From positions 1 to 47,145 of the forward strand of contig JANYKQ010000048.1 of NCBI GenBank assembly GCA_025358115.1: 47,145 nt of DNA. Reading direction: 5' to 3'. The notes under the pieces were generated by a model, which saw only the letters and a list, made by a program, of their open reading frames with translations, was not told the origin of the DNA and did not search any database. This stretch comes from Methanomicrobiales archaeon (GTDB lineage: Archaea; Halobacteriota; Methanomicrobia; Methanomicrobiales; Methanospirillaceae). Every line of letters starts with the position of its first letter. The first letter of the stretch is position 1. Both the position numbers and the translations under genes were made by a program. This document shows, piece by piece, positions 8,402 to 37,239 of the stretch.

Positions 8402-8425
8402 CCCATCTGCTAACCATCAGTGATC

Positions 8426-8941
8426 ATGACATCATCACCACGTTATTCCGGGCGTAACATGCCCCTGATCATCGGCCTTACGATTATGCTCTCACTGGTG
8501 CTGCTCATAAGCGGATGCACCCAGCCGGCAGCTGCACCCGCGACACCAGTCCAGGTATCTGTTGCAACACCGGCACCAGCGGACATGACAACTACCCTGG
8601 CAACAGGAGGAAAGAAGATGGTAACCTTCACTGAAGCAGATAACGGCACCACCGGAACAATAGCACAGAGTACACGGTTTGCAGTCCAGCTCAAAGAAAA
8701 CCCCACCACCGGATACCAGTGGAATGCAACCCTGTCGCCCGGCCTTGAACTCCAGTCATCGGACTACCGCATGAATGACGCGGCCCCGGGTATGGTCGGC
8801 GTGGGCGGGACCCGCACCTGGATCATCACCGCAAAGGATACCGGCCTCCAGAAATTCTCCGCAGTGTACGGTCGTTCATGGGAGCCGGTGACCGGCAATG
8901 AGACGGCCTATAGCGTGAACATTAATGTTGTGAAGATCTAA
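8426..8941 (+). CDS. Lipoprotein with chagasin-type (I42) protease-inhibitor domain
   Basis: A 171-residue exported lipoprotein. A hydrophobic segment (residues 13-29) ends in the lipobox LISGC, with Cys31 as the lipidation site. An Ala/Pro/Thr-rich spacer follows. The C-terminal ~100 residues carry the three chagasin loop signatures: NPTTGYQW (loop BC), GVGGTRTW (loop DE) and RSWEP (loop FG, in place of RPW). Chagasins inhibit papain-type cysteine proteases by inserting these loops into the active site. The target here would be outside the cell and is unknown. The gene is monocistronic and convergent with the 8967-11983 unit. Confidence 0.85.
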   Translation: MTSSPRYSGRNMPLIIGLTIMLSLVLLISGCTQPAAAPATPVQVSVATPAPADMTTTLATGGKKMVTFTEADNGTTGTIAQSTRFAVQLKENPTTGYQWNATLSPGLELQSSDYRMNDAAPGMVGVGGTRTWIITAKDTGLQKFSAVYGRSWEPVTGNETAYSVNINVVKI

Positions 8942-9180: not shown

Positions 9181-9618
9181 TCATTTCCCTTCCCGGAATG
9201 TGTAATGTTTCTGCCCGTGATAATTCCAGAAAAAAGCACAGAGGGTAGCAATGATCTTTCCTGCCAGGTAATTGAGAGAGAAGATCTCAACGGCCAGCCA
9301 GATCACGCTGAGATTGACCAGGAGACAACTGAAAGCAATAGCGGCAAACGTTGAAAATTGTGCGAGATAGTGCCGATCCGTATCGTGGAAATTGAGGTAT
9401 TTGTTCAGGAGATAACTGGCCACGATTCCGCAGCAGTATGACACGGTGGCCGCCAGAAGGTACCAGATGCCAAGGTATGCACAAAAAACATACAACAGGC
9501 CAAGATCAATGAGGGAGGCAACAACCCCGATTAAAAAGAACCCGACCAGTTTCTCGTTGCGAATCCGGTCCAGGACCTGGTAACGGGCCGATATCTGGCC
9601 GGAAAAATCAGGAGTCAT
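9181..9618 (-). CDS. GtrA-family membrane protein
   Basis: A 145-residue protein with four predicted membrane helices and the typical GtrA N-terminal motif (KLVGFFLIGVVASLID). GtrA-like proteins are small polytopic proteins linked to polyprenyl-phosphate-linked sugar translocation. Its ATG overlaps the stop of the GT39 gene by 4 nt, so the two are translationally coupled and probably cooperate in moving or transferring a lipid-linked sugar. The basic C-terminus (GQKHYTFREGK) is likely cytoplasmic. Confidence 0.88.
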   Translation of the reverse strand: MTPDFSGQISARYQVLDRIRNEKLVGFFLIGVVASLIDLGLLYVFCAYLGIWYLLAATVSYCCGIVASYLLNKYLNFHDTDRHYLAQFSTFAAIAFSCLLVNLSVIWLAVEIFSLNYLAGKIIATLCAFFWNYHGQKHYTFREGK

Positions 9619-11828
9619 GCACCGGTCTGCCTGCGGTACCCGGCACAGTCATACAGGGTGTCCTGGCCCCCGGGACCGGCCATGCCGCGTCCCGGCAGGT
9701 TGTATGCCGGGAATGCGGGTGCTGTTCCATTGCCAAAGCCAGGTATACTGTCCTGGAGAGCGGTCGCCCCTCCCCAGTCGGCAGCAGGAACGGCAGCACA
9801 ACTCTCATTGATCCAGGTAAAGAGACCGCCATTTCCTGAACCCATTCCTCCCCCGACTCCTGTAGAGGATCCAAGGAAGTACCGGATCCTGCCGGCATCA
9901 ATGAGGCCCCGTAATGAGGAGACCGTGAGGATCTCGTCGCTGCCGGAGAATCCACCCAGCGACATGACCGGCTCCCCGGTGGAGATCATAAGGCCTGCCC
10001 CCTCGCTGTTGGCAGAAGGCACACCGACAAGCCAGGTCTCGGTCGTCTTGTGGGAGACCAGGTACGTGGAGAGCGGAGTGGCACTATCCCCGATCCGGTT
10101 AAACCCGCCTCCCATACCGGCGCCGCCCCGGTCGAGGTGAGGACCGGCAACCGGCAGGATCCCGCTGTTCCCGTACACCAGCGGCGTGCAGGCCCAGACC
10201 GCCGGTCCGATGAAGAGGATCGCAATAGCAGCACATGTCACGATTTTTGGCAGGTTCCCGGTTGCGGTCCCCTGACGTATTCTGAGGGTCGCCAACAGGA
10301 TGATACTCACGATCACTCCCGCCAGGAAAACCGGGATCAGGTGACCGGACCAGGCCGCATCATAGTTCAGGAACAGTGTCCCGGTGAGACCGGTCACTGC
10401 CACCGCAGCGATGAGGATCCAGCCCCTGGTTCCCCCGGACCGGTAGGCGTCGTACATCCCGACCGCCGCGATCCCCACGAGGGCTGCAAGCGGGGGTGCG
10501 ATGGTGGCCAGATAGTACGTATGCCAGAACCCGGTCGTGAAACTGAAATACGCGAGTCCCGGGAGCAGCCAGAGACCCATCGCCAGCAGGGTAAGCCCCC
10601 GGTCACTGAAGAGACCTGCCTCTTCGAGACCTTTGAGAGTGAGGGTTGCCGGGCGTCGCCACCAGGCGAGTAACCCGATAAGCGCAAAGGGGAGGAGCCA
10701 GCTGATCTGGCCGCCAAGCCCTTCACCGAAGAGCCGGAAGAGGCCGGGCGCACCACTGTTATCCATCCCGCCGCCACCCCGTGCATCACCCGCCAGGGAC
10801 ATACCGGGAGGTGTCCCGGGGGATCCGGCTCCCGGGAATTGTCCCCGTTCCTGGCCAGGCGGTGCCATACCATACCCGGGAGCATCCCCGTTCATACGGC
10901 GATCAGCGGTCCGGTTCAGCTGCTCATCCGGAAATCCAGCTCCCTGCGGACCGCCGGGCCGGATTCCATTCCCGGGCCGGATTCCATTCCCGGGCGGGAA
11001 TCCTCCCGGGCCACCGGGACCCATCTGCCCGTTTTCAAGCCGGTGCAGACCATTGTAGTTGACGATGAGGCCCAGCACCGTGTTATCTCCGCTTCCCCCG
11101 ATGTAGGGGCGCTCGCTGGCCGGGACCAGGTCAACAGCGACCGCCCACGAGAGCGAGACGACTGCCAGCACCAGCAGGGCAAGACCGAGATGAAGGACCT
11201 GCTTTTTTCTCGGAGTGTCCCGTATGCCGAGCAGGTATATGACCAGAACCGCAGGCACGATGATGAAGGCCTGGATCATCTTGATATTGAACCCGATGCC
11301 GATGAGAAAGACCGAGAGGAGGAGGAGCGGGAGGGACTGCTCCCGGGAGGCTTTCAGTGCCACCCAGAGAGCGAGAAGCAGGACAAAGATCAACTGCCCG
11401 TCCATGGTACCGTTGCGGGAGACGGCAACAAAGATCGGGGTGACGGCGAGGGCAAACGCTGATACCAGCCCGGCGGGTTTCCCGAACGGCCGGGAGACGA
11501 TCGCGTACACGAGCGCAACCGACCCGACACCCGCAAGCGCCTGGGGCAGTTCAAGGGACCACCCGGAGAACCCCAGCAGGGCGGCACTGAGGCTCTGGAC
11601 CCAGAGACCGACCGGGGGTTTGTCGATGGTCACGAAACCGGCAGCATCGAACGAATTGAAGAGGGCCATGCCGGGATTCTCGAGCATGCTCCTGACCGCG
11701 GCGGCATAGCACGTATTGGAAAAACCTGTATTCCAGAGATTCCAGAAGTTCAGGAACCCGGATAAGAGAAGGATCGCCCCGAGCAGGATCTCCATCCGGT
11801 ATTTCACCACAATCTCGTTAAGGGTCAT
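9615..11828 (-). CDS. GT39-family membrane glycosyltransferase with Gly/Pro-rich loop
   Basis: A 737-residue polytopic protein of the PMT/ArnT-like glycosyltransferase 39 family, which transfers sugars from polyprenyl phosphates outside the membrane. The first extracytoplasmic loop contains conserved acidic/aromatic residues and TIDKPPVGLW. About ten hydrophobic segments follow. Between residues ~265 and 365 sits a low-complexity Gly/Pro/Met-rich insert, with a perfect GNGIRP duplication coded by an 18-bp tandem repeat. A Gly-rich soluble C-terminal part (from ~560) follows the last helices. I chose the ATG at 11828, whose ATGA overlaps the stop of the 52-aa ORF, rather than the GTG at 11834. 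It is coupled to gtrA downstream. The acceptor is unknown. Confidence 0.85.
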   Translation of the reverse strand: MTLNEIVVKYRMEILLGAILLLSGFLNFWNLWNTGFSNTCYAAAVRSMLENPGMALFNSFDAAGFVTIDKPPVGLWVQSLSAALLGFSGWSLELPQALAGVGSVALVYAIVSRPFGKPAGLVSAFALAVTPIFVAVSRNGTMDGQLIFVLLLALWVALKASREQSLPLLLLSVFLIGIGFNIKMIQAFIIVPAVLVIYLLGIRDTPRKKQVLHLGLALLVLAVVSLSWAVAVDLVPASERPYIGGSGDNTVLGLIVNYNGLHRLENGQMGPGGPGGFPPGNGIRPGNGIRPGGPQGAGFPDEQLNRTADRRMNGDAPGYGMAPPGQERGQFPGAGSPGTPPGMSLAGDARGGGGMDNSGAPGLFRLFGEGLGGQISWLLPFALIGLLAWWRRPATLTLKGLEEAGLFSDRGLTLLAMGLWLLPGLAYFSFTTGFWHTYYLATIAPPLAALVGIAAVGMYDAYRSGGTRGWILIAAVAVTGLTGTLFLNYDAAWSGHLIPVFLAGVIVSIILLATLRIRQGTATGNLPKIVTCAAIAILFIGPAVWACTPLVYGNSGILPVAGPHLDRGGAGMGGGFNRIGDSATPLSTYLVSHKTTETWLVGVPSANSEGAGLMISTGEPVMSLGGFSGSDEILTVSSLRGLIDAGRIRYFLGSSTGVGGGMGSGNGGLFTWINESCAAVPAADWGGATALQDSIPGFGNGTAPAFPAYNLPGRGMAGPGGQDTLYDCAGYRRQTGA
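10961..10996. repeat. 18-bp tandem duplication inside GT39 gene
   Basis: Two adjacent 18-bp copies (GGATTCCATTCCCGGGCC, then the same with the last base changed) encode a doubled GNGIRP hexapeptide in the low-complexity loop. The near-identity indicates recent slippage. Confidence 0.8.
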
Positions 11829-11983
11829 GGCCACCGGTCCCGCACAACTTTAAGAATGGCGATAATTTCCCGGGCCTGGCGCAGGCCTGTGCAGGGTAAT
11901 TCCCCTTCAAGGCAGTGCACCCGTCCCTGGATCTCGTCTATTTCGTGCTCCGTGATAAGGAACCACGGGTTTTCAGACACCAT
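11825..11983 (-). CDS. 52-aa protein, first gene of the GT39 operon
   Basis: A short ORF on the minus strand from ATG 11983 to a TGA that overlaps the GT39 ATG by 4 nt. A good GGAGGT ribosome-binding site lies 9 nt upstream (revcomp of 11993-11998). The peptide begins MVSENPWFLITEHEID and has two cysteines (VHCLEG, LPCTGL) and an amphipathic, charged C-terminal half (LRQAREIIAILKVVRDRW). There is no membrane helix. The ATGA coupling and ribosome-binding site make it a likely real small protein. The family is unknown to me. Confidence 0.6.
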   Translation of the reverse strand: MVSENPWFLITEHEIDEIQGRVHCLEGELPCTGLRQAREIIAILKVVRDRWP

Positions 11984-12154
11984 ACCGGTACAACCTCCGG
12001 GCAGCCGGTGATGCCCCTCTGCCGATCAGCATTCCATAATTCCTGAACTTCATTTTCCCTGTAGCTCCCGCTGAATAGTGGATGGCCCGTTGGCAACCCG
12101 GGCAGATATATTGATGATACGGTGCCGGTGAAAGGAAGATACCGGGAGGATGAA

Positions 12155-12289
12155 ATGGTGAACCCGCAGGGATCATATATCGTAAAAAATCCCCGGGGTA
12201 ACCCGGGGGAACGACCGTGGCCCGGTGAGAGGAAAGGTCCAATTACTGAAAAATACCAACCATTTTTATCAGGGAGGGTGACATTATGA
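12155..12289 (+). CDS. Candidate 44-aa leader ORF upstream of the FHA regulator
   Basis: A 44-codon ORF with an excellent GGAGG ribosome-binding site at 12145-12149, five bases before the ATG. The peptide is rich in Pro, Gly and Arg (MVNPQGSYIVKNPRGNPGER at the start). It spans a GC-rich hairpin (CCCCGGG 12191-12197, CCCGGGG 12202-12208). Its stop overlaps the ATG of the next short ORF (ATGA). A TATA-like AGATATATTG lies at about 12105-12114. It may be a leader peptide or a small protein; conservation cannot be judged here. Confidence 0.35.
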   Translation: MVNPQGSYIVKNPRGNPGERPWPGERKGPITEKYQPFLSGRVTL

Positions 12290-12340: not shown

Positions 12341-13108
12341 ATGACAGAGAAAGAAACGATTTCTATCTCATCGGATCCTGCTTTTCTGCAGGAACTTTCA
12401 GAATACTTAGAGGTGCTCTCGAACCCGACACGCCTGAAAATTCTCAAAGTGATCGAGAAAGAGCCAAAAGAGATCAGTGAGATCGCATCCCGCATCGATA
12501 CCAGTTATGCCAATACCAAAAAACACATCGACCAGCTCGTTCATATCGGCCTGGTGAAGAAAGAGGCGGGTTTTGGCCGGGAGACCATAAAAGGGATTCA
12601 CCCGGTCTGGAAGTTCTCCCTTGCTGCAGGCAGCATGGGGATGCTCATCAAGAACCTTGGCGTCTTTTCGCGGATCAACATCCCCCTGGGGTACGGCGAG
12701 ATCCAGGGAACCCTCGAATCCGTGAGACAGGCGGTAATCAAGGAATCCGGGACAGACTATCCGGCACTCCATCTGATGGGAGGGAAAGAGGCGGGTCGCA
12801 CGTACCTTCTCAAAAAAGAACGGACACTGATCGGCAGGATTGATCCGGACAACCCGTCAAAACTCAGTGAAGGGGATATCGCACTTCCCGTTGAGTACGT
12901 ATCCGTGACGCGGATCACAAAACCCCATGCCATCGTAACGAAGACTTCCACCGGCTGGCAGATCGAGGACCGGGGCAGCTCGGGGGGAACCTACCTGAAC
13001 GCAGAACTCATTGCACCGATGCACAAAACAACGGTAAAAAACGGGGACGTCATCGATCTTGCCATGGGGGAAGATGCGGCCCGGTTCCTGTTCATTGCAA
13101 ACGAGTGA
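12341..13108 (+). CDS. ArsR-type winged-helix regulator fused to an FHA domain
   Basis: A 255-residue cytoplasmic protein. Residues ~15-90 form an ArsR-like winged helix (LEVLSNPTRLKILKVIEKEP, then a recognition-helix region SYANTKKHIDQL). Residues ~142-252 form a forkhead-associated domain that binds phospho-threonine peptides. FHA landmarks are GR at 165-166, VSVTR..KPH at 187-196 (a variant of S-R-x-H) and GGTYLN at 215-220. It lacks ArsR metal-binding cysteines, so phosphorylation is the likely input. The kinase gene starts 6 bp downstream. The most natural reading is a transcription factor controlled by, or docked to, that kinase. GAGGAG at 12324-12329 is its ribosome-binding site. Confidence 0.85.
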   Translation: MTEKETISISSDPAFLQELSEYLEVLSNPTRLKILKVIEKEPKEISEIASRIDTSYANTKKHIDQLVHIGLVKKEAGFGRETIKGIHPVWKFSLAAGSMGMLIKNLGVFSRINIPLGYGEIQGTLESVRQAVIKESGTDYPALHLMGGKEAGRTYLLKKERTLIGRIDPDNPSKLSEGDIALPVEYVSVTRITKPHAIVTKTSTGWQIEDRGSSGGTYLNAELIAPMHKTTVKNGDVIDLAMGEDAARFLFIANE

Positions 13109-13114
13109 GGGTTG

Positions 13115-15085
13115 ATGGCAGATAGGGCAGGTCATGATCTCCGTATGAGTGGATCGCCGGTGGCCGGGGGTATCCGGGATTTTGTAGTGTTTGCGCTCCT
13201 GCTCCTCTTCATCTCCCCGGCAGCTGCCAATGTTTTTACGTACGATGGCAGAGGAAATGCCAGTTCGATCCAGGATCTGATCAACACCACAAGCACAGGG
13301 GACAGTATCTACCTGGCCGGCGGCACCTATTACGAAAATCTCCTGATCAACCGGCCTATCGTGTTCGGAGCCCTGGACACGAACAATCCGCCCGAGATAG
13401 TCTCTTCCACGGCATCCGGTGCCGGGATCACCCTTGCAGCGGACGGGACAACGATAAACGGGGTGAATATTTCCGGCACCGCCCCGGCCGGGCTCCTTGT
13501 GCAGTCGAACAATAACCGTATCAGTGCTATTACGGTCAGGGGACTTGGCACGGGTATCAGCCTGAAATCGGCAACAGGAAACATTTTTTCCGGCAACACC
13601 GTAGTAAATAATTTAGTCGGGATCGAGACCGACCGCAACTCGCGGGCCAACATTTTTTATCTCAATTATCTCGACAATCCCAAACAGGTCAGCACTCAGT
13701 TCTCTGACAACATCTGGTCATCAGGCCGGCAGGTCTACCGCTATGCGGGAAGCGATTTTTCCGGGTCCGTAGGAAACTTCTGGAAAGGTTTTGAGGGGGC
13801 GGACAGCAACAGCGACGGGATATGGGACACTCCGTATGTTATTCAAAGCTCCATTCCCGGCCCGAATACCGCAACAGAGATCACTGATCGCGCTCCCCTG
13901 GTCAGCACACCGCTGTCGTATACTTTGGTCAGCGGGGTAAGCCAGCTCAATACATCCCCACTGGACAGGAGGTTACAAATACCTGAACTCTCCCCGTTCC
14001 CGCAACAGCAGGGATACCTGGGGATTTCGTCGGGTCCGGTTCTGCCGGGGAATGGAAATCCCACGGGGCCGCTAAACCCGTTTCTTCCCTTCCTGGTACA
14101 GTTCTGGTGGGTGATCCCCATTGCCATTATCATCTCAGTGGTAGCCGGGATCTGGTTTGAGAGGAAATGGAAACGGAGAGGAACGACCGGAGATGATGCC
14201 AGCGGGACCGGGAGCTCCTCGCGTAACGTAACCATTGTCAAAAAGACTCTCTCTCCTGAGGGATCGGCTGAACAGGAACAGCTCCATTATGGTGCCCATC
14301 TTCCCCCAGCTCTGGAGAGAAAATATCCATCGGCGGAGTACGTTGCCGAGGGGGGAGTCTCCCGGGTGTTCAGGGTATGGGACGAGAAGGAGAGCCGTGA
14401 TGTTGCGGTGAAGATCCCAATCCGCTTCGATGAAGTGACCGGGGCGCAGTTCACCAAAGAGCTCCACGTATGGGAAGGACTCCATCACAAAAATATTGTC
14501 GAGATCTATGCGGCCAATATCTTCCCGGTACCATATATCGAGATGGAGTATATTGCATCGTCCCTGGCTGCCCTTACATTCCCGCTCGAGACAAAAAAGG
14601 CCCTGGCGATTGTCAGGGGAGTTGCAGAAGGCCTCCGGTACGCTCACGAACAGGGCATTGTCCACCGGGATATCAAACCGGATAATATCATGATTGCGCC
14701 GGATGGTACACCAAAGATCTCAGACTGGGGGCTCTCCAAGGCAGAGGGAACCAAACAGTCCGGCCTGATCGGATTTTCCCTGGAGTATGCAGCCCCCGAA
14801 CAGCTGGCCCCGAACCTCTACGGAGAACCGGGCCCCTGGACAGATATCTACCAGGTGGGGGTCCTGTTCTACGAGATGCTGGCAGGAGAAGTCCCCTTCC
14901 GGGGCGGGGGCATGGGAGAGGTGACCCATGCGATCCTGCATGACGACCCGCTGCCACTGGCCCCTGGGGGGCCGGATGCCGGGTTGATCGGGGAAATCAT
15001 CCTGAAATGCATGGCAAAGAAGCCGCAGGACCGGTATAGTTCTGTGGTACAATTACTGGGGGATCTGAAAAAAGTCCGGGTTTGA
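13115..15085 (+). CDS. Membrane Ser/Thr protein kinase with extracellular NosD-type beta-helix
   Basis: A 656-residue single-pass receptor-like kinase. An N-terminal signal/anchor lies at ~22-39 (ending PAAAN). A right-handed beta-helix of the NosD/CASH type covers ~43-245 and ends in the typical GNFWKGFEGAD..SDGIWDTPY signature. One transmembrane helix at ~327-347 is followed by basic residues (RKWKRR). The cytoplasmic PknB-like kinase spans ~405-655: degenerate glycine loop AEGGVSRVF, K433 in VAVKIP, catalytic HRDIKPDN at 518-525, DWG (for DFG) at 537-539 and APE at 560-562. All catalytic residues except the DFG Phe are kept, so it should be active. Start is ATG 13115 after GTGAGG; a TTG at 13112 is possible. 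It is co-transcribed with the FHA regulator. Confidence 0.9.
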   Translation: MADRAGHDLRMSGSPVAGGIRDFVVFALLLLFISPAAANVFTYDGRGNASSIQDLINTTSTGDSIYLAGGTYYENLLINRPIVFGALDTNNPPEIVSSTASGAGITLAADGTTINGVNISGTAPAGLLVQSNNNRISAITVRGLGTGISLKSATGNIFSGNTVVNNLVGIETDRNSRANIFYLNYLDNPKQVSTQFSDNIWSSGRQVYRYAGSDFSGSVGNFWKGFEGADSNSDGIWDTPYVIQSSIPGPNTATEITDRAPLVSTPLSYTLVSGVSQLNTSPLDRRLQIPELSPFPQQQGYLGISSGPVLPGNGNPTGPLNPFLPFLVQFWWVIPIAIIISVVAGIWFERKWKRRGTTGDDASGTGSSSRNVTIVKKTLSPEGSAEQEQLHYGAHLPPALERKYPSAEYVAEGGVSRVFRVWDEKESRDVAVKIPIRFDEVTGAQFTKELHVWEGLHHKNIVEIYAANIFPVPYIEMEYIASSLAALTFPLETKKALAIVRGVAEGLRYAHEQGIVHRDIKPDNIMIAPDGTPKISDWGLSKAEGTKQSGLIGFSLEYAAPEQLAPNLYGEPGPWTDIYQVGVLFYEMLAGEVPFRGGGMGEVTHAILHDDPLPLAPGGPDAGLIGEIILKCMAKKPQDRYSSVVQLLGDLKKVRV

Positions 15086-15205: not shown

Positions 15206-15616
15206 CTAGGATCCGGTCGGCGGTGTGCCTGACGGACGTGTCCCATCCATCTGGAATCCATCGGGGGGTGTGCCCGATGGACGTGTCCCGTTCATCTGGA
15301 ATCCAGCAGGGGGGGTTCCTGAGGGGTGGGTACCGTTTCCCAGCATACCTTCGGGACGAACTCCCTTTGCACCGACGGATTCGTTGAACTGCGGCTTGTC
15401 ACCACTGCCAGCCGGGTCGGGTGTTGCTGACGAGGCAACAATGCCGGAGCTCGCTCCGGATGTTTTATCAACGGTCTGTTCCTGTCCTGTGGAAGCGGGC
15501 TGGGTTGTTGTGGATTGTCCGGAACTGCTCGCGGTCTCCTGGGTACATCCTGCAACCAGGATTCCTCCAACGAGGACTGCTGATACAATCAGCATCATGA
15601 TACTGCTTCTTTTCAT
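15206..15616 (-). CDS. Repeat-bearing secreted lipoprotein
   Basis: A 136-residue lipoprotein. The signal region ends in the lipobox VAGC (GGILVAGCTQE). A Ser/Thr/Gln-rich spacer follows. The C-terminus is three copies of a 15-residue repeat (consensus GFQMNGTRPSGTPPD). Two copies contain NGT, an N-glycosylation sequon, and a further NES lies upstream, so it may be a glycosylated surface stalk. I chose the ATG at 15616 because GGAG lies about 8 nt upstream; longer in-frame starts precede the signal region. The promoter may be the TATA at ~15841-15849, giving a ~200-nt leader. Function unknown. Confidence 0.75.
   Translation of the reverse strand: MKRSSIMMLIVSAVLVGGILVAGCTQETASSSGQSTTTQPASTGQEQTVDKTSGASSGIVASSATPDPAGSGDKPQFNESVGAKGVRPEGMLGNGTHPSGTPPAGFQMNGTRPSGTPPDGFQMDGTRPSGTPPTGS
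15209..15340. repeat. Three 45-bp tandem repeats in the lipoprotein gene
   Basis: Three in-frame 45-bp units encode the GxxxNGTxPSGTPPx repeats. The two distal copies are nearly identical at the DNA level (shared GGACGTGTCCC..CATCTGGAATCCA blocks), whereas the proximal copy has diverged. Copy number may vary between strains. Confidence 0.75.
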
Positions 15617-16075
15617 CTGATTCATCTCCTGGGATTCCCGGCACCTCACCATAAAATGCGCCCGTGCCGGGGTTTGCATGAAGTCTTACATTCCTGATAC
15701 CGGTGAACGAATCCGGGAATCGCGCGAATACGTTATGGTGCGCAACACCTGGCCACGAAAACCGACCCGATCGCTTCATCAATAGTTTTTAATGATCTTC
15801 TGGGAGGTGATCGTCCCGCATCCCAATAATCACCGGCTATTATATATTCGCACCATGGGATCAGTGAAATACTTCAATGCAACCTGCCATTCATTGAACT
15901 CCCGGGGGTACAATATCCCGAAACGATTATGATAAGGACGATGCTACCAAAACATTCTGTAAGATTTTATAGAATAAAAAAAGAATTTGGATACAGGTGA
16001 ACCAAAACCCGTTCACCATTTTTGTTCCCTGTCCGACCGGGTGATCCCGGAAGGAGGTTTCAAGGGTGTTCTTCT
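15617..16075. other. Non-coding stretch with minus-strand promoter
   Basis: About 460 bp lie between the lipoprotein start and the end of the PKD gene. It holds the lipoprotein leader, a minus-strand AATATATAATAG TATA element (about 15837-15848) and the sequence shared with the promoter at 22037-22053. A GGGAGGTGATCGTCCC block at 15801-15816 is the only other notable sequence. I see no convincing ORF. Confidence 0.5.
15843..15859 (-). promoter_or_regulatory. Shared promoter-proximal motif, copy 1
   Basis: On the minus strand it reads CCCATGGTGCGAATATA and runs into the TATA box of the lipoprotein transcript. The same 17-mer with one change occurs at 22037-22053, also in front of a minus-strand TATA box. 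Confidence 0.4.
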
Positions 16076-35015: not shown

Positions 35016-35958
35016 CATGTTCTCCTGACTTCCTAACCAGTAATATAACCATATCAGAAAAAGTAACAGATCTCTTCCAACCGGTTTTTGTTATTAATTT
35101 TGCCGGATTCCCTACAAGTGCAACTGTTTCCCGGGTGATAATTTCCTTTCGTTCTTCAACAAAATCCCGCCAGTCCAAGCCAAGGGTATCGAAAGCAATC
35201 CTCACAAAGTCCTCGACCGTGTGCTTTTCCCCGGTTGCAATTATAAAATCATCCGCTTCTGTATGGTGTAGGATCCTGTGTATTGCGTCAACATAATCCG
35301 GTGCAAACCCCCAGTCAACCACTACGGCCAGATCGCCCAGAATTACCCGTTTTTGTGGGTTTTTTTTGCAATTAATTGCTCCATTAACAATTTTTTGTGA
35401 AACAAATTGTTCCCCCCGCAACCAGGATTCGTGATTATAGAGAATTCCCACAGATGCAAAAACATGGTGAACGGAACGATACATCCTGCAGAGATACACT
35501 CCGGTGGCCTTGGTTACACCATAGATAGCCAGAGGATTAATTACCGTATTCTCATCCTGGGGTTCATCGATCGGCTTTCCAAAAATATGCGATGATGCAG
35601 CATAGAAGAGTTTTGTGCTGGGAGAAAATTGCCGTATCGCCTCTAAAAAATTAAATAAGGATAAGACATTCACGTCATAACTTTGATGGAACAGATTTAC
35701 CGGTTCTGCCACAGGATCCTGGGATGAATTATGTACTGCCGCGAAATGGTAAATTTCATCCGGTTGTAACTTCTGAACAATTTGTGTGACGTCTTCAAAA
35801 TTACAAATATCAACTGTTTTTTTCCCATCCCAATCTTTAATATTGGTAATTACCCGTTGTTTTCCAATTCCCAGAAGTGAATATTTTTTTCCTTCAAGAA
35901 GATGGTAGAGAAAGGTTCCATCCTGTCCGGTTGCTCCCACAATAATTGCGCTTGGCAT
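35005..35958 (-). CDS. NAD(P)-dependent sugar epimerase/dehydratase (Gmd/Rmd-like)
   Basis: A 317-residue short-chain dehydrogenase/reductase of the extended sugar-nucleotide type. A GATGQDGTF Rossmann motif lies at residues ~6-14, AASSHIFG near 125-135 (Ser/Thr of the triad) and YGVTK (YxxxK) near 150. It is most similar in pattern to GDP-mannose 4,6-dehydratase and GDP-4-keto-6-deoxymannose reductases. Because a full Gmd is encoded nearby, a ketoreductase or epimerase role is more likely. I chose the ATG at 35958, after AGGAT and just before the Rossmann core; an ATG at 35979 is the alternative. Confidence 0.82.
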   Translation of the reverse strand: MPSAIIVGATGQDGTFLYHLLEGKKYSLLGIGKQRVITNIKDWDGKKTVDICNFEDVTQIVQKLQPDEIYHFAAVHNSSQDPVAEPVNLFHQSYDVNVLSLFNFLEAIRQFSPSTKLFYAASSHIFGKPIDEPQDENTVINPLAIYGVTKATGVYLCRMYRSVHHVFASVGILYNHESWLRGEQFVSQKIVNGAINCKKNPQKRVILGDLAVVVDWGFAPDYVDAIHRILHHTEADDFIIATGEKHTVEDFVRIAFDTLGLDWRDFVEERKEIITRETVALVGNPAKLITKTGWKRSVTFSDMVILLVRKSGEHDER

Positions 35959-35985
35959 GTTATCTGGATCCTGTCTCATGGAGAA

Positions 35986-37239
35986 TTATACAATCTCAAC
36001 TTCCGGCAATGGAAAAATAAACTTACCACCGTCTTTCAAAAATTCAGATTCCCTTTTTATAAATTCTGCTTTGAAATGCCAGGGAAGTACTAAAAAGAAA
36101 TCTGGTTTTAGTTCCCTTGCCTCTTTCTCAGAAATGATCGGAATATTGTTACCCGGGGTCCGGCTTCCCCATTTTTCCGGATTCCGTTCTGCAGCTGCGG
36201 TGATTACCGAAGTATCTATACCGAAATACTGGAGAAGCACATTTCCTTTTGTCGAGGCCCCATAGATAATTATTTTTTTCCCCCTAGCCTTTTCTGTTTT
36301 TAATATTGTATTGAGCTTTATTTTGATTTTTTCAACCCTGTTACAGAAATCTATATAGGGTTTTTCAGTATCCAATTTCAGAGATTTTTCTTCAGAAATG
36401 ACCTTATTCAGCATAGTTGCATTCGGTATATAGTCTGAATCTGCATGGGCGACATATAATTTGAAACTTCCACCATTTATCAGATTAAATTCGACATCTA
36501 TAACCTTGAGATTATTTCTTGTGAGCATCCATTCGATCTGGCGAAACGCATAATATTCCAGATGCTCATGACAGATAGTATCGAATGAATTCATTTCGAG
36601 CATTGTAGGTAAATAACTCTGTTCAAGAATCCATATCCCATCCTTATGTAAAATCTTATGAATATTTTCAACAAATTCCATGGGTTTTTCAAGGTCGTAG
36701 AACATTGCAATGGATGTGATAATTTTTGCTTTCTTATTGGGAAATACCGAGTGGAAATTAGACGCAGTAAAAAAATCGCTTACAAGATGGATAGCCTCAG
36801 GATAATATTTTTTGTATTGTTCCCCGCCTGGATCAATCCCAATTCTCTGGAGATCTTTTTGGGTATAACTCTTCAAGAGAGTTCCATCGTTACATCCGAT
36901 ATCCAGCACGATAGCATTTTTTTCCAGATGTACAATTTTCTGGGCCTTATCGACGATATCACAAAGATGATCACTCATTGTCTTGTTAATCCCGGAGCGA
37001 TAACCATAGTCACATCTGTACATCTGATCCGGAGGTACGGAATGTTTTAACTGGACAAGTCCACATGCATCAGTTTTTTTTGAGTTATCGCACTTGATTA
37101 AAAATAGTGGGGCGGATGGAGGATCGGGATCATCCATTTTTGGGAATCTCCCGGATAATGCCTGATTCCCCAGATCAATAACAGTAATGAATTGATCGTT
37201 TCCGCAAATTCGACATTTTTTTATTTCACGGGTCTGCAT
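35986..37239 (-). CDS. Sugar-nucleotide C-methyltransferase (TylCIII/NovU type)
   Basis: A 417-residue enzyme with the three-part layout of NDP-4-ketosugar C-methyltransferases. The N-terminal zinc-binding region has CRICG and CDN..CGL (residues ~9-60). The SAM domain carries LDIGCNDGTLL near 112-122. A His-Glu-His motif (CHEHLEYY) near 222-230 is the conserved catalytic patch, and the C-terminal domain has IYGASTKGN near 328-336. These enzymes add a methyl group to carbon 3 of a 4-keto sugar to make branched sugars. It precedes the epimerase gene and lies divergent to gmd, suggesting a GDP-6-deoxy-4-keto substrate. Confidence 0.85.
   Translation of the reverse strand: MQTREIKKCRICGNDQFITVIDLGNQALSGRFPKMDDPDPPSAPLFLIKCDNSKKTDACGLVQLKHSVPPDQMYRCDYGYRSGINKTMSDHLCDIVDKAQKIVHLEKNAIVLDIGCNDGTLLKSYTQKDLQRIGIDPGGEQYKKYYPEAIHLVSDFFTASNFHSVFPNKKAKIITSIAMFYDLEKPMEFVENIHKILHKDGIWILEQSYLPTMLEMNSFDTICHEHLEYYAFRQIEWMLTRNNLKVIDVEFNLINGGSFKLYVAHADSDYIPNATMLNKVISEEKSLKLDTEKPYIDFCNRVEKIKIKLNTILKTEKARGKKIIIYGASTKGNVLLQYFGIDTSVITAAAERNPEKWGSRTPGNNIPIISEKEARELKPDFFLVLPWHFKAEFIKRESEFLKDGGKFIFPLPEVEIV

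Follow-up and report, generated by a model that had tools for sequence, protein, structure and literature searches.

Background

The closest analogue of the gene pair described here is the PknH-EmbR system of Mycobacterium tuberculosis, in which a membrane Ser/Thr kinase with an outer sensor is matched with a DNA-binding regulator carrying a C-terminal FHA domain, and whose genes pknH and embR are neighbours. The receptor kinase PknH is reported to phosphorylate EmbR in an FHA-dependent manner, and EmbR to control envelope arabinosyltransferase genes (PMC4601284). Two genes of similar layout were analysed in the window, a stretch of 47,145 nucleotides from a Methanomicrobiales archaeon that constitutes contig C30 of a 2.26 Mb, 70% complete genome, and whose nearest named relatives were mostly Methanoregula (six of seven; Methanoregulaceae for the seventh). 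The upstream gene encodes an FHA-winged-helix regulator (the family is referred to as FHA-wH), and the gene 3 bp downstream, also on the + strand, encodes a receptor Ser/Thr kinase. The pair is real and conserved, and its sequence features are best interpreted as those of a receptor Ser/Thr kinase that has an FHA-winged-helix regulator of its own.

Two other groups of described proteins are relevant to this locus. DgcB, GarA and OdhI have FHA domains that recognise a Thr in the N-terminal tail of the same protein, with a hydrophobic residue at +3 in DgcB, and the +3 residue is often read by FHA domains (PMC6733907). In the Sulfolobus Arn network, the promoter-binding FHA protein ArnA, which has a Zn-ribbon and an FHA domain and works with a vWA protein (ArnA/ArnB), is under the Ser/Thr kinases ArnC and ArnD; the available portions of these sources mention no receptor kinase as its fixed neighbour (PMC10470591, PMC13286277, PMC7226565). 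A search of openly licensed papers yielded no account of an archaeal receptor kinase paired with an FHA-winged-helix regulator, which agrees with a preliminary description of the window that knew of no archaeal system with this layout; the precedents of PknH-EmbR and of Sulfolobus ArnA had been missed there.

Results

Conservation and joint inheritance of the pair

Both ORFs (open reading frames) and the domains assigned to them in the preliminary description were recovered at the same coordinates by the ORF list, Pfam and AlphaFold2. Conservation was counted on 102 FHA-wH ORFs from 101 loci, namely the window and 100 regions chosen from match lists before their neighbours were seen; these ORFs are a sample of the matches rather than all of them, and some are from near relatives. 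Intergenic gaps and overlaps are approximate, because ORF starts were called mechanically as the first ATG, GTG or TTG.

A kinase gene of the same family is the next gene downstream, on the same strand, for 94 of the 102 FHA-wH genes. The gap is at most 100 bp in 82 of these 94 pairs, 29 of which overlap, 13 of them by four bases. The remaining eight include four genes at contig ends, with no kinase before the end (L062, L067, L072 and L168), one with a split kinase (L058, gap 597), two that form convergent pairs with a kinase (L101 and L102), and the first FHA-wH gene of L092, next to which a PP2C gene is found instead of a kinase. Because 94 of 102 regulators have a kinase next to them while the window's own genome has only six Pkinase matches, chance adjacency is not credible. 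Conservation as neighbours, on which the preliminary description had made its proposal depend, thus extends across the order.

Relatives of the regulator were found in 83 of 108 genomes of the family. A profile built from 33 relatives (A1) and used for the order-wide search found members of the regulator family in 154 of 232 Methanomicrobiales genomes, representing 33 of 40 genera, and in 102 of the 135 genomes that are at least 90% complete. When 392 genomes spread over the phylum were sampled, FHA-wH matches at E ≤ 1e-10 occurred in 65, all within Methanomicrobiales. Up to four copies were present in one genome (G226).

The association was also examined from the side of the kinase. The window's kinase domain had 116 matches at E ≤ 1e-20 in 60 Methanoregulaceae genomes. 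Of these matches, 76 adjoin an FHA-wH gene, as do 64 of the top 70, a cut that was chosen after the list had been seen; these counts, and the count of FHA matches given below, were made by hand on printed match lists. The six exceptions in the top 70 comprise one in a genome whose second FHA-wH gene is cut by a contig end, a 129-residue remnant in G067, three in genus g2 on contigs apart from FHA-wH, and one in G031 without a nearby FHA-wH match. Matches below the top 70 belong mostly to other kinase groups, for example the three kinases on contig C78 of the window's own genome.

The 129-residue remnant (G067:C1:51305-51691) shares 95% identity with the C-terminal half of the kinase domain encoded in the window, and the sole FHA-wH match of G067 is a more distant paralogue on C14. 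In L092 (5116-5916 and 9051-11600) there are two FHA-wH genes, the first followed by the PP2C gene and the second, 27% identical to the window's, by a kinase.

In the same 60 genomes, 81 of 88 Pfam FHA matches were FHA-wH proteins and the other seven were short ORFs of 174-198 residues from a single genus. The eight genomes without FHA-wH had no Pfam FHA match at all, and six of them had no kinase match at E ≤ 1e-20, the other two matches scoring 210.6 bits (G063) and 187.2 bits (G010). In a 196-genome sample of the phylum, an FHA match was found in 30 genomes, 27 of them in the order. The FHA domain in Methanoregulaceae is therefore essentially this regulator alone.

The distance matrices of the regulator and kinase trees were correlated (0.70, 96 pairs; L058, the four contig ends and the first FHA-wH gene of L092 were left out). 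When partners were shuffled within the 22 multi-pair genomes, none of 1000 shuffles reached 0.70 (mean 0.48, maximum 0.67), and 35 comparisons of paralogues within genomes gave a correlation of 0.61. The correlation shows a stable partnership, not physical contact.

An FHA-winged-helix regulator with an invariant tail threonine

The Pfam domain matches in both window proteins all exceed the curated cut-offs, and no NCBIfam model reached its cut-off for either the regulator or the kinase. In the regulator, HTH_20 was matched at residues 26-74 (E 3.8e-10) and FHA at residues 164-240 (6.2e-9), and the AlphaFold2 model consists of a winged helix-turn-helix (wHTH) and an FHA fold, with a mean predicted local distance difference test score (pLDDT) of 83.7. 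Foldseek ranked the FHA domain of DgcB first and EmbR second, in both cases for the FHA part only (TM-score 0.33-0.35 of query length).

FHA domains that bind phospho-Thr are marked by Gly-Arg, Ser-x-x-His and Asn-Gly-Thr motifs. Gly165, Arg166, His196 and Ser213 are invariant in all 102 regulators, and position 193 of the pocket is Ser or Thr in 101; the Asn of the third motif is mostly Gly.

A further conserved feature was found in the otherwise variable N-terminal tail. When all 102 regulators were aligned, Thr occupied position 6 in 99 of the 99 filled rows, and Ser never did; of the three gaps, two are due to late starts (L057 and L058) and one to misalignment of the second FHA-wH protein of L092, in which the tail Thr is present. 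The entropy at this position is zero, compared with 1.8 to 3.7 bits at residues 1-5 and 7-11, and in a redundancy-reduced set (<60% identity) Thr occupies 29 of 31 rows, the other two being gaps. Residues 1-8 have pLDDT <50 and are predicted to form a disordered tail ahead of the first helix of the winged helix. An aliphatic residue usually follows at +1 (I, V or L, 96 of 99 regulators) and at +3 (I, L, V or M, 72 of 99). The features of a GarA/OdhI-type tail, namely a conserved Thr, an unstructured N-terminal tail and a hydrophobic +3 residue, are thus present in the regulator family. FHA domains prefer phospho-Thr to phospho-Ser, and it is likely that Thr6 is a phospho-acceptor captured by the regulator's own FHA domain. 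When relatives with the helix-turn-helix domain only were sought, which would have uncoupled Thr6 from the FHA domain, all matches above 100 bits lay in ORFs of FHA-wH length and the rest scored at most 31 bits. The domains of the regulator had been assigned correctly in the preliminary description, in which the invariant tail Thr had been overlooked.

A receptor kinase with a constant core and variable sensors

The window kinase was predicted to comprise a signal peptide, a NosD-type beta-helix, one membrane helix and a complete Ser/Thr kinase domain. Pfam matched NosD at residues 102-229 (2.3e-14) and Pkinase at 411-610 (3e-35), and the AlphaFold2 model (mean pLDDT 77.3, predicted TM-score 0.44) contains a helix at 16-33, beta-strands at 41-275, a helix at 334-356 and a kinase-like fold. 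The TTG at position 13112 is immediately followed by an ATG at 13115 that is preceded by GAGGG.

The motifs of the kinase domain are VAVK with Lys434, HRDIKPDN, DWG replacing DFG, and APE. Residues K434, D520, K522, N525 and D538-W539-G540 are identical, and Pro562-Glu563 of APE is kept, in all 97 kinase sequences from the sampled loci. DWG instead of DFG is also found in the active kinase CK2. The active site is intact by the features of Hanks-type Ser/Thr kinases and looks active. Foldseek placed PknB first, with 31% identity to 3oro.

The sensor regions are less uniform. In 11 kinases, namely that of the window and ten of the 96 others chosen for variety, Pfam found NosD in four, PEGA in two and no sensor family over the cut-off in five; by a simple hydropathy count, two segments precede the kinase domain in 42 of 97 kinases and four to eight in 47. 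Because the sensors vary while the catalytic residues are fixed, the same kinase core is evidently fitted with different inputs, as in two-component systems. The arrangement of beta-helix, membrane helix and kinase that the preliminary description had proposed was borne out by Pfam, AlphaFold2 and the motifs, and what it could not see is that NosD is just one of several sensors.

The kinases on G000:C78 of the window's own genome (20691-21446, 29820-30572 and 34308-35063) lie in long frames of 1939, 1265 and 679 residues and adjoin a PP2C match (35479-36096); the sole FHA match of this genome is located elsewhere. G037:C20 likewise has three such kinases.

Proposed signalling mechanism and alternative explanations

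The pair is probably a Ser/Thr counterpart of a two-component system, for which a switch involving Thr6 and the FHA domain is the best explanation. Binding of a ligand, here perhaps a surface glycan, to the outer beta-helix would activate the kinase through its single membrane helix, and the active kinase would phosphorylate a Thr in its own juxtamembrane region. The FHA domain of the regulator would dock on this phospho-Thr, whereupon the kinase would phosphorylate Thr6 in the tail of the docked regulator. Phospho-Thr6 would then fill an FHA pocket, that of its own subunit or of a partner, releasing the regulator from the kinase, and the winged-helix dimer and DNA binding of the released regulator would be altered in either direction (on or off). 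Its DNA sites would be its own promoter first and perhaps the promoter of a divergent glycosyltransferase gene, and a PP2C phosphatase would reset the switch. The two-gene line from outside to DNA suggested in the preliminary description remains the best reading, its neighbours being conserved; its function we infer. The wider proposal, that Methanomicrobiales have a dedicated, sensor-diversified family of Ser/Thr "two-component" systems, in which each kinase would have its own FHA-wH regulator and the FHA domain would be handed from the linker phospho-Thr to phospho-Thr6, is more tentative and is put forward as possible rather than probable.

A candidate docking site was sought between the membrane helix and the kinase domain, where residues 356-394 have pLDDT <50 and are predicted to be disordered. 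The motif T[IVL][IVLFM] occurs in 50 of 96 linkers, compared with 12.1 ± 2.9 in shuffles, and in 14 of a reduced set of 30 kinases (<60% identity), compared with 3.6, a number that 1000 shuffles never reached. With Ser in place of Thr there is no enrichment (17 of 96 versus 12.4; 4 of 30 versus 4.1), and a control motif with charged or amide residues is depleted in the reduced sets. The enrichment is exploratory, because the motif was picked after the sequences had been looked at.

PP2C-type genes, which were out of sight in the preliminary description of the pair, are present in 10 of the 101 loci, all ten above the Pfam cut-off. In seven of these loci the PP2C gene immediately precedes the regulator, in two it comes straight after the kinase, and in one it follows a regulator. 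The window's own genome has two PP2C_2 matches away from the pair.

Several observations weigh against the proposed switch. The Asn of the Asn-Gly-Thr motif, which touches the bound peptide in well-studied FHA domains, is replaced by Gly in 91 of 102 regulators, by Ser in eight and by Ala in one, and is kept in two. The linker motif is missing in 46 of 96 kinases; the stricter pattern tried first, T[IVL].[IVLM], showed no enrichment (11 of 96 versus a shuffle mean of 15.9); an Ala/Gly control was mildly enriched (29 of 96 versus 22.9; 11 of 30 versus 7.8); and true partners did not surpass paralogues in how well their tail and linker motifs match (33 better, 31 worse, 5 ties). Because the stricter pattern was not enriched and no pair-specific match of tail and linker was seen, the role of the linker Thr as FHA docking site is graded as plausible and that of Thr6 as likely. 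A Thr in the activation loop is present in just 78 of 97 kinases; as a universal FHA docking site it was ranked low, being absent in 19. The correlation of 0.70 would also be given by plain inheritance as a single cassette, and the kinase of G063, an FHA-less genome, scores only 0.2 bits under the top-70 cut. Most cassettes, including that of the window, have no adjacent PP2C gene, and 5 of 31 genomes searched had no PP2C_2 match; three of these, G062, G065 and G036, are >90% complete and have the pair. Finally, no regulon is visible, because the conserved element upstream of the regulator is nearly unique per genome.

Four other explanations were weighed. The one that survives best, unlikely as it is, holds that the linker phospho-Thr of the autophosphorylated kinase tethers the regulator at the membrane until dephosphorylation by PP2C frees it for DNA, with Thr6 accessory or competing. 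This would be consistent with the enrichment of the Thr motif in the membrane-adjacent linker, with the invariant pocket Arg and with the PP2C genes near 10 of the 101 loci; it leaves unexplained why Thr6 is the single invariant residue of the regulator's tail, and the 46 linkers without the motif count against it as well.

One kinase family stands beside one FHA family in 94 of 102 cases, FHA-wH is nearly the sole FHA protein, and the two genes are inherited jointly, which makes it quite improbable that they are neighbours for co-expression only, with the FHA domain reading another phosphoprotein and the kinase having other substrates. In favour of that explanation are the PP2C gene that takes the place of the kinase after the first FHA-wH gene of L092, the two convergent pairs, and the fact that interaction between kinase and regulator remains inferred from sequence.

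The replacement of the Asn by Gly in 91 regulators could also mean that the regulator is a one-component switch whose FHA domain serves for dimerisation or as a scaffold, independently of phosphorylation. With Arg166, His196 and Ser213 invariant in 102 regulators, position 6 never Ser and a kinase adjoining, there is very little probability of this. A phage-defence or conflict module using a kinase is scarcely credible, since the match of the kinase to PADLOC kinase models (e.g. PD-T4-6) is limited to the generic kinase domain and the regulator family is order-wide (102 of the 135 genomes ≥90% complete), with clade-specific recurring neighbours.

Upstream region and neighbouring genes

The switch through Thr6 and the FHA domain thus remains the preferred explanation, and possible targets of the regulator were looked for around the pair (Table 1).

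Table 1. Features of the receptor kinase-regulator locus in the window
Feature	Position	Strand	Basis
FHA-winged-helix regulator, 255 aa, ATG start	12341..13108	+	ORF, Pfam, AlphaFold2; 102 family ORFs
Thr6, invariant tail Thr, proposed phospho-acceptor for FHA binding	12356..12358	+	alignment, pLDDT
ArsR/HTH_20-type winged-helix domain, residues 13-94	12377..12622	+	Pfam, AlphaFold2
FHA domain, residues 142-252	12764..13096	+	Pfam, AlphaFold2, fold search, alignment
Receptor Ser/Thr kinase, 657 aa from TTG; ATG start likely at 13115	13112..15085	+	ORF, Pfam, AlphaFold2
Predicted extracellular beta-helix, residues 41-275, NosD match 102-229	13232..13936	+	Pfam, AlphaFold2
Single transmembrane helix, residues 334-356	14111..14179	+	hydropathy, AlphaFold2
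Thr374 in linker (N-V-T-I-V), candidate FHA docking site	14231..14233	+	motif enrichment, pLDDT
Ser/Thr kinase domain, residues 401-655	14312..15076	+	Pfam, alignment, fold search
Conserved element AAAATACCAACCATTTTTATC, 70-90 bp upstream of regulator; putative core promoter or autoregulatory site	12250..12270	+	ortholog alignment
Second conserved intergenic block; perhaps promoter of divergent glycosyltransferase operon	12104..12190	.	ortholog alignment
Divergent PMT_2/YkcB-like glycosyltransferase, 737 aa, candidate target	9615..11828	-	locus comparison
GtrA-family membrane protein after glycosyltransferase	9181..9618	-	ORF, locus comparison

When 20 genomes were searched for the upstream element, it was matched exactly at 10 places, nine of them upstream of FHA-wH, and with one mismatch at 20 more; the window's own copy of AAAATACCAACCATTTTTATC is too divergent to be recovered by this search. 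Of 13 ortholog loci, 10 have a PMT_2-type glycosyltransferase gene in divergent orientation to the regulator. L052 and L053 show no copy of the second conserved block, and neither has a glycosyltransferase in the stretch (the contig of L052 ends there). The reading of this block as a glycosyltransferase promoter is weak, because L045 keeps the block even though its 12 kb stretch yielded no glycosyltransferase. As a first guess, the regulator may act on its own gene and on surface glycosylation. No Rfam match was found in the window.

Other genes were noted nearby. A 52-residue ORF (11826-11983, - strand) ends at the start of the PMT_2 glycosyltransferase, and a similar stretch was seen by eye in L048, L049 and L051. 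A small lipoprotein-like protein with NGTRPSGTPP-type repeats (15206-15679, - strand) lies in convergent orientation with the kinase at 10 of the 13 ortholog loci, and a Chagasin-family (I42) peptidase inhibitor with a lipoprotein-like start is encoded at 8420-8941 (+ strand).

Comparison with known systems

EmbR has an OmpR-type wHTH, a BTA and an FHA domain, whereas the window regulator has an ArsR/HTH_20-type wHTH, an FHA domain and an invariant N-terminal Thr tail. Pfam gave no BTA match, which places the regulator outside the EmbR/SARP proteins; it is not an EmbR, because the OmpR-type and BTA domains are missing. The pair also differs from PknH-EmbR in being archaeal and order-wide, and in that its sensors are different and variable. 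The tail Thr ahead of the FHA domain and the hydrophobic +3 residue are shared with GarA, OdhI and DgcB, none of which is known to bind DNA; phosphorylation of Thr6 in the window regulator is a prediction. The regulator does not belong with ArnA, as a wHTH rather than a Zn-ribbon precedes its FHA domain.

PknB/Stk1 provides the nearest solved fold for the kinase, from which the window's family differs by DWG in 97 of 97 sequences. The kinase is not a PASTA kinase, having a NosD beta-helix and no PASTA match, and it scored 178.5 bits with the NCBIfam model PknB_PASTA_kin against a cut-off of 450. His-Asp two-component systems resemble the pair in having neighbouring genes for a sensor kinase and a DNA-binding responder and in swapping sensors on a fixed core; neither protein is a member of these systems, as no HisKA, HATPase or receiver match was found by Pfam in either.

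Conclusion

Membrane-to-DNA signalling in methanogens is poorly known. In a census of 39 Methanomicrobia genomes, only 20 of 697 response regulators had a helix-turn-helix output (PMC5847659), and because so few have such outputs, a Ser/Thr route to DNA is of interest in these organisms. The comparison with PknH-EmbR suggests that bacteria and archaea reached the same layout of receptor kinase and FHA regulator with different DNA-binding domains. With a conserved pair and a named candidate phospho-acceptor, the question of how signals pass from membrane to DNA becomes directly testable, and the material includes single-contig genomes. If the proposed reading is true, the pair would provide a direct membrane-to-DNA route for archaea whose response regulators seldom have a DNA-binding domain.

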